From positions 1-8,229 of the forward strand of contig QANA01000052.1 in assembly GCA_003149735.1 (NCBI GenBank): a stretch of 8,229 bases of DNA, given 5' to 3'. The notes beneath the pieces are model-generated. The model saw nothing but the letters and a program-made list of their open reading frames with translations, was not told the origin of the DNA and ran no database searches. Made by a program: the position numbers and the translations under genes. Below are positions 4,424 through 8,227 of this stretch, piece by piece (within the stretch, counting starts at the first letter, position 1; every line of letters starts with the position of its first letter). Origin of the DNA: Clostridiales bacterium. GTDB taxonomy: Bacteria > Bacillota_A > Clostridia > Christensenellales > Christensenellaceae.

Positions 4424-5185
4424 TTATTTGCGGATTGCCGTGGAAGTATAATCCCAGCCGCAGGCATCCAGCTGTTCCAGCGCCTGCGCCACGCAATCTA
4501 CCAACACCTGTTCCATCTGCGCTCCCTTTTGGGCAGTGGCCCTGGTAGGATCCCCGGTTGCAGCAGTATCTGTCAATTCCGCAAAATCCCACTTGATTTC
4601 GATATGTTCGGGCAGGCGATCGGGCACCACACCCCTCGCCAGCTGCGGTTCACACCACTGCGGAAACAAATGGTAGGCAATGGAGCTTTCCCCCTCACCC
4701 GCATGGCCAAGGCCGCCCCAGACTTCAAAGGTATCCGGCGGCAGCAGCTCGCCCGCCGTCACCCACCAGGCAGGCAGCGCTGCAATGCGCGCCTCGGGAT
4801 ACTTCTCCTTAATCTTGCGGGAAGCAATCTCCATAGGGGCAATATTGCCGTCGTGCCCGTTCATGAGGAAGATATGCCGGATCCCGTTGCGCAGGCAGGA
4901 TTCCAGAATATCATAAATCACTGCGGTAATCGTATCATACGAAAGCGTCAGCGAACAGGGAAACGCATCGTAGTGAGCGCTGTAGCCTACCGTTACCGGC
5001 GGCAGCACCAGCAATCCCCTGACCCGCTGCGCCACTTTGCAGCTGAGCATGTAGGAGACAAGGGTATCCGTCCCCGAAGCCAAATGCTGCCCGTGGGCTT
5101 CACAGGAACCTATCGCCAGAATGGCCTTATCATAGCCGCCTTCCGCCACCTGATGGGCAGTCAGTTTCATTAATTCATGTTGCAT
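4424..5185 (-). CDS. Creatininase family protein (metal-dependent amidohydrolase)
   Basis: This is a 253-residue member of the creatininase / creatinine amidohydrolase family, cytoplasmic enzymes with a binuclear metal centre that open cyclic or formyl amides. Family motifs appear in order: 'GSCEAHGQH...GTDT' (26-41), giving Glu29, His31 and Asp40 with creatininase spacing; 'NGHDGN' (109-114) with His111; and 'GLGHAGEGES' (158-167) with Glu164 and Glu166. True creatininase has Glu two residues after the motif His; here that place is Gly113, as in the broader NGHGGN subfamilies (formamide deformylase, mycofactocin and similar), so creatinine is unlikely to be the substrate. The start is ATG 5185, with GGAGGAGG just upstream; the frame extends to 5251 through the promoter. 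It has its own promoter and terminator, so it appears monocistronic, and it diverges from the riboswitch-controlled gene. Confidence 0.87.
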   Translation of the reverse strand: MQHELMKLTAHQVAEGGYDKAILAIGSCEAHGQHLASGTDTLVSYMLSCKVAQRVRGLLVLPPVTVGYSAHYDAFPCSLTLSYDTITAVIYDILESCLRNGIRHIFLMNGHDGNIAPMEIASRKIKEKYPEARIAALPAWWVTAGELLPPDTFEVWGGLGHAGEGESSIAYHLFPQWCEPQLARGVVPDRLPEHIEIKWDFAELTDTAATGDPTRATAQKGAQMEQVLVDCVAQALEQLDACGWDYTSTAIRK

Positions 5186-5289: not shown

Positions 5290-5318
5290 TTGCATTTTTG
5301 CATATCGGCCGCTATAAT
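5290..5318 (+). promoter_or_regulatory. Promoter of the riboswitch leader
   Basis: TTGCAT and a perfect TATAAT are separated by 17 bp (about 5290-5295 and 5313-5318). Transcription would start near 5325, just before the first paired element of the riboswitch. It is divergent from the creatininase-family promoter, with about 40 bp between their -35 regions. Confidence 0.82.
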
Positions 5319-5335
5319 AAAGCAAAATTGATATG

Positions 5336-5519
5336 TTCGGCAGAAGACGGCTCTAGACATCCGCAAGGCAGCGGAGGCCGAAGAAGCAAGGTGGGTGCGG
5401 CTCCATTCCCCGCTCACAGAAACTGACAGGCAAAAAGAAGGTCGTCTGACGAAACTCTGGAGAGAATGCGCCTTTGCGCATCGCCTACGTGGCTACAACC
5501 AACTGGCAAAAGGACAGAG
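5336..5519 (+). ncRNA. Glycine-riboswitch-type leader: aptamer 1 plus a degenerate second aptamer
   Basis: Hallmarks of tandem glycine riboswitches occur in the right order: CCGAAGAAGCAAGG (5378-5391), ACAGGCAAAAAGAA (5426-5439), the linker GACGAAACTCTGGAGAGA (5448-5465) and GGCAAAAGGACAGAG (5505-5519). A leader-linker helix can form (TTCG 5336-5339 with CGAA 5450-5453). In aptamer 1, P1 is AGACGGCT 5345-5352 with GGTCGTCT 5440-5447. A hairpin, TCCGC with GCGGA, lies at 5360-5375, and a longer imperfect one (GTGG/GCGG with CCGC/TCAC) at 5391-5417. In aptamer 2, P1 is CTCTG 5455-5459 with CAGAG 5515-5519, and a perfect hairpin lies at 5466-5481. The segment that should hold the CGAAGGAGCAA core and the long hairpin is cut down to about 20 nt (5482-5502). 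The expected P2 pairing (GAGAG with CTCTC) is absent in both. Glycine is the expected ligand by family, but not certain. Confidence 0.82.
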
Positions 5520-5577
5520 CGCACAGCATGGTTTTCCCCTGTCGGGGGAGTACATTTGCTGGCGCTCTGCCCTTTTT
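5508..5577 (+). terminator. Riboswitch expression platform: terminator overlapping the last P1 stem
   Basis: CAGAGCGC (5515-5522) and CAGCA (5524-5528) pair with TGCTG (5557-5561) and GCGCTCTG (5562-5569), with one bulged A. An inner hairpin (CCCC 5536-5539 with GGGG 5544-5547) fills the loop. The base extends with AAAAGG to CCTTTT across an A-C mismatch and runs into TTTTT (5573-5577). The strand CAGAG is also the 3' half of the second aptamer's P1, so the two structures exclude each other. Stabilising P1 should prevent termination, making this an ON switch. Confidence 0.85.
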
Positions 5578-5617
5578 CATGCCGGAAAATAAAATAAGAC
5601 TTCCGCAGGAAACAGGC

Positions 5618-5645
5618 AGACCCATATCACAGGGATGGTCTTTTT
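5618..5645 (+). terminator. Possible second, weaker hairpin with T-tract before the start codon
   Basis: AGACC and AT (5618-5625, one bulged C) pair with AT and GGTCT (5635-5641), followed by TTTTT (5641-5645). It lies between the main riboswitch terminator and the GGAGG ribosome site (5651-5655). The stem is only 7 bp, so it may be a weak terminator, a pause site or chance. Confidence 0.35.
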
Positions 5646-5662
5646 CTGACGGAGGTTTTTTT

Positions 5663-7069: not shown

Positions 7070-8227
7070 TCAGATATGCCGATACGACTGCTCGATATAG
7101 CCCTGCAGCAGCTGCCGGAAAAGCTCGCTTTCCGGATCCAGCCCGCAGACCTCCCGCAGCACCGCTTCCACGCCCTTGCGTTCTTTCAAAATTGCCAGGC
7201 GGATGCTTTCCTCATCTTGAAAGCTGAAATAATTGACCGCACAGTACAGCACCGGTGCAAAGGCCTCCAGCGAAATGCCGTAGCCATGGCACAGCTCTGC
7301 CGCGCCGATGATGCGCTCATGCCGCCCCAGTTTGCGCATGGGGGAACGCGCCAATCGGGCGAGCGGGTCGGCCAGTGCCGCATTTTTATAGCACTGCAGG
7401 CGGCCGGCGAAATATTCGTCGATTTCCTGCTCGTCAAAGCCGTATTTCAGGCGCACCATTTCCCCGGCCGCATCCCATACTGCAAAAAGCACATCCTGAA
7501 TTTCATCGTCGGCCACTGCTTCCAGCGTAGTGGCATAGCCTTTTTTACTGCCCAGATAGGCCAGCACCGCATGGCCGATATTATTGAGATACAGTTTGTG
7601 GTAGTAATAGCGGTTGACATCGTCTGCCAGCTCGAAATATTCCGTATGCAGCACCAGCTGCGTATCCGCCAGTTCGCGGCGGGTAAGAATGGGCGGAATA
7701 AACTCCTCACTCACCCCATCGATGCGGCCATCCTCCCGCACCACCTTTTTGGAGATGCGCTCGATGGATGCATGGGAGACGCTCAGCCAGGCGGGCAGGC
7801 TGCCCAACTGACGGCGCAGTTCGCCCTCCACCAGTTCCCTGAGGCCACTGCCGTTTTCAAAAAGCAGAATTGCCAGCCGCTTTTGCCCGCTGCGCCTGCG
7901 CACCCAGCCCGCAATCGAGGCGGCTGCGGCAGCAAGGTTGGCAGCACCCACCGCCGTCACAATAAAATCCGCTTCAGCGGCAAATTCCGCCGTCTGCGCA
8001 TCCTCTACCCGCGCGGCGCAAATGCCGCGAATCTCCTGTTTTTTTATCTGGTCGCCGGAAACGGCGGTATACAAGTCGTACCCTCCGCGGCGGTTGATAT
8101 CCGAAATCACAGCATCGTCGATCTCCGCATAGCGGAAATCAAAGCCCAGCTGCGTAAAAATATAGCCGCTCACCGATTTGCCGATGGCGCCCGCGCCCAG
8201 TGCCAGACATTTCCCCTTCTGCTGCAT
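7070..8227 (-). CDS. Mannitol-1-phosphate 5-dehydrogenase / mannitol dehydrogenase family protein
   Basis: This 385-residue protein matches the mannitol dehydrogenase family in length and order; E. coli MtlD is close to 382. 'LGAGAIGKS' (10-18) is the N-terminal NAD-binding loop. 'FIVTAVG' (88-94) and 'LLFENGSG' (121-128) match conserved strands of the Rossmann domain. 'KLYLNNIGHAVLAYLG' (211-226) holds the K-x4-N-x2-H catalytic signature as Lys211, Asn216 and His219. 'MRKLGRHERIIGAA' then matches the C-terminal all-helical domain. The family reduces sugar phosphates such as fructose-6-phosphate to mannitol-1-phosphate. No PTS or mannitol regulator gene is in view, so the true sugar substrate is open (tagaturonate, fructuronate and altronate enzymes share the family). 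The start at ATG 8227 leaves only 2 bases upstream, so no ribosome site is visible, but its distance to the GAG loop suits the family. Confidence 0.85.
   Translation of the reverse strand: MQQKGKCLALGAGAIGKSVSGYIFTQLGFDFRYAEIDDAVISDINRRGGYDLYTAVSGDQIKKQEIRGICAARVEDAQTAEFAAEADFIVTAVGAANLAAAAASIAGWVRRRSGQKRLAILLFENGSGLRELVEGELRRQLGSLPAWLSVSHASIERISKKVVREDGRIDGVSEEFIPPILTRRELADTQLVLHTEYFELADDVNRYYYHKLYLNNIGHAVLAYLGSKKGYATTLEAVADDEIQDVLFAVWDAAGEMVRLKYGFDEQEIDEYFAGRLQCYKNAALADPLARLARSPMRKLGRHERIIGAAELCHGYGISLEAFAPVLYCAVNYFSFQDEESIRLAILKERKGVEAVLREVCGLDPESELFRQLLQGYIEQSYRHI

Follow-up and report, generated by a model that had tools for sequence, protein, structure and literature searches.

The leader of the saccharopine-dehydrogenase-like gene in the window, by which we mean the whole 8,229-nt stretch of DNA analysed, is an intact, true member of RF03166 (glycine-GGAnGA), a variant family already known among the glycine riboswitches, and the copy is ordinary for that family. 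In the reading that we regard as quite likely, aptamer 1 holds the sole complete core and carries an altered pocket, the 3′ aptamer is a ghost, and the element works as an ON switch for the dehydrogenase gene. The interest of the case lies in the ligand question of RF03166 rather than in the window copy.

Identity of the element

The window was compared with all Rfam families at E values up to 1. Positions 5337–5521 of the forward strand matched RF03166 with 155.2 bits (E = 1e-34; gathering score, 110 bits) over model positions 1–177 of 177, bearing out the earlier note, which had placed a glycine-riboswitch relative at 5336–5519. RF03166 was the only family reported, a lower overlapping match from the same clan being omitted by the tool, and its two signatures are present, namely CUGAC at 5423–5427 in the aptamer 1 core and CCAACUGG at 5499–5506 in aptamer 2. 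The Rfam model ends at the ghost P1 and contains neither the terminator nor the pseudoknot described below (Table 1).

Table 1. Features of the riboswitch and its surroundings in the window
Feature	Position	Strand	Details and basis
Possible promoter	5290..5318	+	TTGCAT, 17 nt, TATAAT; read directly in the sequence
Glycine-GGAnGA riboswitch, both aptamers	5337..5521	+	RF03166 full-length match
Leader-linker helix	5337..5452	+	5337–5339/5450–5452; model pairs, 96.6% of cells paired
Aptamer 1	5346..5446	+	P1 5346–5353/5439–5446, P2 hairpin 5358–5376, P3a 5377–5386/5423–5431, P3b 5390–5418; model, alignment
Altered P3a pocket	5383..5427	+	RF03166 and RF00504 model alignments
Candidate pseudoknot	5403..5531	+	P3b loop CCAU 5403–5406 with AUGG 5528–5531, the latter in the 5′ arm of the terminator; a 4-bp pairing of little strength on its own; family-level support
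Ghost aptamer 2	5455..5519	+	P1 5455–5459/5515–5519, P2 hairpin 5464–5482, P3 stub 5483–5492/5499–5507; model, alignment helices 6–9
Intrinsic terminator	5510..5577	+	−39.7 kcal/mol, then TTTTT; fold
Saccharopine-dehydrogenase-like enzyme, 444 aa	5663..6997	+	PF03435 and PF16653

An exact pattern derived from the ghost core was run on 84,980 species genomes and returned 54 stretches, 48 of which are RF03166 above the gathering score (112.3 to 175.2 bits); since the pattern is exact, looser members were missed, and viral contigs gave no match to it. The same departures from the canonical switch recur in the 48 homologous leaders, and thus the window copy is not a decayed canonical switch, an outcome that had been named in advance as a possible refutation. 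Because the altered pocket and the ghost aptamer are features of RF03166, they are not peculiar to the window copy; its P3b and terminator are GC-rich, and nothing sets it apart from the family.

Secondary structure and the P2 hairpins

To examine the structure, 39 of the 49 loci were aligned, the 10 with long insertions (L007, L012, L019, L020, L021, L042, L043, L051, L052, and L054) being set aside. In these 39 aligned homologues, standard pairs filled 86.6% of pair cells, compared with 73.7% after shuffling and 29.5 to 45.4% after sliding, and 32 of the 51 pairs showed changes on both sides. Covariation was seen in the leader-linker helix (2/3 pairs with both-side changes), P1, P2, P3b, and the ghost P2. 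The leader-linker helix, both P1 stems and both short hairpins, which had been claimed from the sequence alone, are therefore confirmed by the RF03166 model and by the homologue alignment.

The P2 stems had also been described as broken, on the premise that GAGAG normally pairs with CUCUC. This premise did not hold: in the canonical RF00504 model, GAGAG pairs with nothing, CUCUC forms the 3′ side of P3a, and the short hairpin is P2. The window has both P2 hairpins, and they covary in the class to which it belongs, with both-side changes in 5/5 pairs of the aptamer 1 P2 and in 4/5 pairs of the ghost P2 (39 aligned homologues). Normal P2 hairpins in both aptamers had been set beforehand as the observation that decides the matter, and thus the P2 part of the earlier note is refuted; given the RF00504 model pairs and the P2 covariation, we reject the broken stems as a misreading. 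The strands that had been singled out are nonetheless changed. For CTAGAC facing ACTGAC in aptamer 1, the core strands are indeed altered, but the change sits in P3a next to a normal P2 hairpin; for GAGAG facing CCAAC in aptamer 2, the named strands have changed, but they are not P2, and the ghost P2 hairpin is intact.

The altered pocket of aptamer 1

As described in PMC13104608, P3a is made up of three G-C pairs and a purine-U pair, together with a bulged U that is crucial for glycine binding. Aptamer 1 of the window departs from this arrangement in the RF00504 alignment. Its P3a has the pairs G5383-C5427, A5385-U5424, and G5386-C5423; A5426 takes the position of the bulged U of the canonical switch, and A5384 opposite G5425 replaces the canonical third G-C pair. 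The resulting A/A/G/A pocket state is found in 40 of the 49 loci, with both P3a positions altered together and in the same way. Two P3a pairs drawn by the RF03166 model are standard in 0/39 and 1/39 relatives, and two poor pairs occur in the P3b of the window in the RF03166 alignment. Judged by these alignments, the pocket of aptamer 1 is altered in a manner that would fit a changed ligand choice.

The window RNA and the canonical tandem switch (RF00504) share the leader-linker helix, the P1-P2-P3 plan, the 3′ core AGGCAAAAGGACAGAG, a terminator sharing P1, and, as a candidate in the window, a P3b-loop pseudoknot. In contrast to RF00504, the window has the bulged U and one P3a G-C pair of aptamer 1 changed and lacks P3b in aptamer 2, and the genes concerned lie outside glycine metabolism. 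With RF03166 itself, the window has in common its full length, the altered aptamer 1 core, and the truncated aptamer 2.

The ghost aptamer

The ghost aptamer 2 of the window has no P3b. Its P1 (5 pairs) is 100% paired, and the P3 stub is paired in 39/39 aligned homologues, with GCC 5483–5485 joined to GGC 5505–5507 and enclosing invariant inner G-C pairs. At the first pair of the stub, 26 of the 39 have GC, 7 GU, and 6 AU, and in none is it broken, which favours this pairing over the local GCC-TACGT-GGC hairpin. Thus, the cut-down aptamer 2 of the earlier note stands in that the long hairpin is missing, but what remains is more than the local hairpin. The suggestion of a singlet-like switch whose 3′ aptamer is a ghost is supported as well, as a feature of RF03166. 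These data support a ghost aptamer kept as a scaffold and as a helix for switching.

Singlet glycine riboswitches with ghost aptamers are described in the available part of PMC6944388. The type-1 singlet with a 3′ ghost likewise has one complete aptamer followed by a ghost that keeps P1; unlike that ghost as it is presented there, the ghost of the window keeps P2 and the P3 stub too, and whereas type-1 singlets bind glycine, the pocket of the window is altered. At L031 (4954–5153), an additional hairpin sits on the P3 stub of the ghost at the position of P3b, as would be expected of a shortened full aptamer; it may perhaps represent a truncation intermediate.

Terminator and direction of switching

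The terminator was found by folding and is not listed by a simple consensus scan of the window, which also missed the possible promoter because its first hexamer matches only 3/6. The ghost P1 has its 3′ strand inside the 5′ arm of the terminator, and thus P1 and terminator are mutually exclusive. In 46 of the 49 loci, the window included, the terminator 5′ arm begins within AAAAGGACAGAG, which comprises the P1 3′ strand of the ghost plus the bases immediately preceding it. Such a terminator is absent at L010, L016, and L044, where the start codon lies about 37 nt after the aptamer and control is perhaps translational.

Because only one of these two helices can form at a time, a ligand stabilising the aptamers should permit transcription. 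Under this scheme, ligand binding to aptamer 1 would stabilise the aptamer dimer and the ghost P1; the strand GACAGAG would be retained in the ghost P1, so that the terminator, which needs it, could not form; and the dehydrogenase gene would be transcribed, making the element an ON switch. The P3b loop of aptamer 1 probably also grips the terminator 5′ arm, as in the pseudoknot of canonical tandem ON switches. A second, weaker hairpin (−8.0 kcal/mol, then TTTTT) lies at 5611–5648 of the window, just 5′ of the ribosome-binding site and start codon.

The P3b-loop pseudoknot

The loop of P3b in aptamer 1, commonly ACAUCUU, complements a stretch, often AGAUG, a few bases past the ghost P1. We compared this loop-leader pairing with permutations, in which kinship was corrected by thinning only. 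With all 49 loci, 0 of 5,000 permutations reached the true value for bases 0–14 by either the helix or the energy score; after thinning to 29 and 21 loci, 6 and 13 permutations reached the helix score and 1 and 1 the energy score. At 10 loci with <75% identity, no pairing signal was left (1,966 and 1,856 of 5,000 permutations; z = 0.3), and the control stretch at 18–36 gave no pairing signal at any thinning level. Of 13 additional true members examined, 12 entered a held-out test, with core strings set by hand for 6; L106 was left out because it is broken at a contig joint, its contig jumping from the aptamer into the gene end. These 12 later-found loci gave p values of 0.0066 and 0.0019, and the 9 without close kin gave 0.0148 and 0.0033; the control was null. 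Striking pairings are those of L015 (8 bp), L174 (8 bp), and L052 (7 bp), and pairing is poor in one clade with the loop GGAUCGG and in L009, L131, and L181. These sequence comparisons support the presence of the pseudoknot in RF03166 at the family level. For the window copy it is predicted by family likeness, the scoring routine having chosen another 4-bp match over CCAU/AUGG.

The available part of PMC13104608 describes a P3b-loop pseudoknot in canonical tandem ON switches, after Torgerson et al. 2020, and gives it as common among ON switches but lacking from OFF switches. We therefore reject the idea that the pairing is new in kind, and, as far as that source goes, what is added here is only its presence in RF03166. 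In our canonical set, long-P3b tandem switches (49 rows) gave z = 6.3 for bases 0–12 (control, 0.5) and short-P3b ones (11 rows) gave z = 0.5 (control, −2.0), in 60 rows among which three loci stand twice and a few rows are plainly mis-cut, 15 of 75 loci being unparsed. The pseudoknot shows which stretch of RNA a construct for functional tests must include.

Regulated genes

A start motif of the dehydrogenase lies within 400 nt downstream of the aptamer in 43 of the 49 loci. The nearest solved chain to the window enzyme is 4rl6 (136.6 bits). The 6 loci without the motif (L008, L009, L014, L026, L028, and L038) have a cation-diffusion-facilitator-like gene instead; the L009 copy was searched with Pfam and NCBIfam (PF01545, 103.4 bits; an SseB-like gene comes next), and the other five were judged by resemblance of their translations. 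We checked 28 of the 48 genomes, picked to include the 6 of the efflux type. The dehydrogenase was found in 22/22 chosen genomes of its own type, the best match adjoining the aptamer with 57 to 72% identity, and in 0/6 of the efflux-type genomes. Among the 12 usable further members, the gene downstream is this dehydrogenase in 11 and a different protein with the NADP-binding domain in L182.

An amino acid permease (PF13520) closely follows the dehydrogenase in L053, and the downstream gene is permease-like by its N terminus in L049 and in L181, which is cut off. In the window, a creatininase-family protein (4424–5185) and a mannitol-dehydrogenase-family protein (7070–8227) are encoded on the minus strand, with no link to the switch seen for either.

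Ligand specificity

RF03166 seems to be an orphan family, and we take it to be a variant of Weinberg et al. 2017. No ligand name for RF03166 was found in open-access full texts, a scope outside which most subscription papers lie, the defining one included; PMC12452182, in the portion available, names the family and gives no ligand. As excerpted, the review PMC9481103 cites Weinberg et al. 2017 for core-mutated glycine riboswitch variants that reject glycine, and the same work is cited for variant glycine riboswitches in the accessible part of PMC6944388.

Sorted by the bases equivalent to A5384/G5425/A5426, the 49 loci comprise 40 with A/G/A, 1 with C/G/A, 6 with A/A/U, and 2 with C/A/G. It is conceivable, but on balance unlikely, that RF03166 is not of one specificity and that these pocket types mark different ligands, the window being of the commonest type. 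All 6 A/A/U loci precede the cation-efflux-like gene and none the dehydrogenase, which their genomes lack. These 6 loci, however, form one lineage, a sample of 114 relatives yielded only the same 6, and A/A/U also occurs in aptamer 2 of L112 (at about 1667, minus strand), an otherwise canonical-looking tandem switch; thus, the idea of a second ligand is weakened. Moreover, the C/A/G loci precede the dehydrogenase just as the A/G/A loci do, and the Pfam basis for the efflux association consists of the L009 efflux gene and its SseB-like neighbour. We are a little more doubtful still of the narrower version, in which the P3a pocket tells apart at least two non-glycine specificities, one tied to the dehydrogenase and the other, A/A/U, to efflux. 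The L112 switch itself precedes an unrelated membrane-protein-like gene of 339 aa.

An ordinary, somewhat degenerate glycine riboswitch that still senses glycine is improbable. It would agree with the architecture, the ON-type terminator, and the pseudoknot, all of which are as in canonical tandem switches, and with the closeness of the families, canonical aptamers exceeding 110 bits on RF03166 (a sample of 398 held 11 genomes over the cut-off, 10 of them without the variant signatures). But RF03166 and not RF00504 was reported for the window, the joint P3a change recurs across the 40 loci, none of the 49 loci has a glycine-cleavage gene downstream, several of the same genomes hold separate canonical RF00504 copies, and core-mutated variants reject glycine in the excerpted review (PMC9481103). 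The window switch, as far as its sequence tells, probably no longer senses glycine.

Another reading that we considered, and hold to be very improbable, is that carboxy(nor)spermidine is a product or substrate of the encoded enzyme and that the switch senses a polyamine metabolite. The only NCBIfam match of the dehydrogenase is carboxynorspermidine synthase, at 129.6 bits far below the cut-off of 800; the carboxyspermidine dehydrogenase chain 8deb gives 113.3 bits to the window enzyme; and a PotD-like gene lies 231 nt past the dehydrogenase in L003. The partner decarboxylase nspC, however, was over its cut-off in 0/28 genomes, and a single match narrowly missing it (408.5 of 409.05 bits, G007) adjoins a different paralogue of 27% identity, so that the enzyme is unlikely to act on carboxyspermidine. 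A functionless decayed copy, to which the two poor P3b pairs might point, is rejected with next to no doubt, since the window score is mid-range among the 48 relatives and terminator and gene are intact.

For the preferred reading, an RF03166 switch whose altered aptamer 1 pocket would respond to something other than glycine, the ligand hunt is narrowed by the near one-to-one tie to the dehydrogenase, by the unlikely spermidine route, by the two pocket positions, and by the pocket type before the other gene. A pure guess for the window type would be a secondary-amine amino acid, for example an N-substituted glycine that the enzyme could split.

Occurrence in genome samples and the gathering score

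Matches to RF03166 over the cut-off were found in 10/397 genomes (family of the Coprococcus comes genome), 11/398 (phylum sample), and 6/114, 11/118, and 11/119 (further samples), and, at a stricter limit of 1e-26, in 3/117, 1/197, and 2/118 genomes, all counts including the starting genomes. Both variant signatures are absent from the 10 non-seed over-cut-off loci of the phylum sample, of which 9 show CTCTCAGG and one neither. L109 to L116, L118, and L121 are canonical-looking tandem switches that score 110 to 125 bits on RF03166. Thus, the gathering score admits canonical tandem switches, and automatic annotation will mislabel some of them; the RF03166 threshold is also singled out in the accessible part of PMC12452182.
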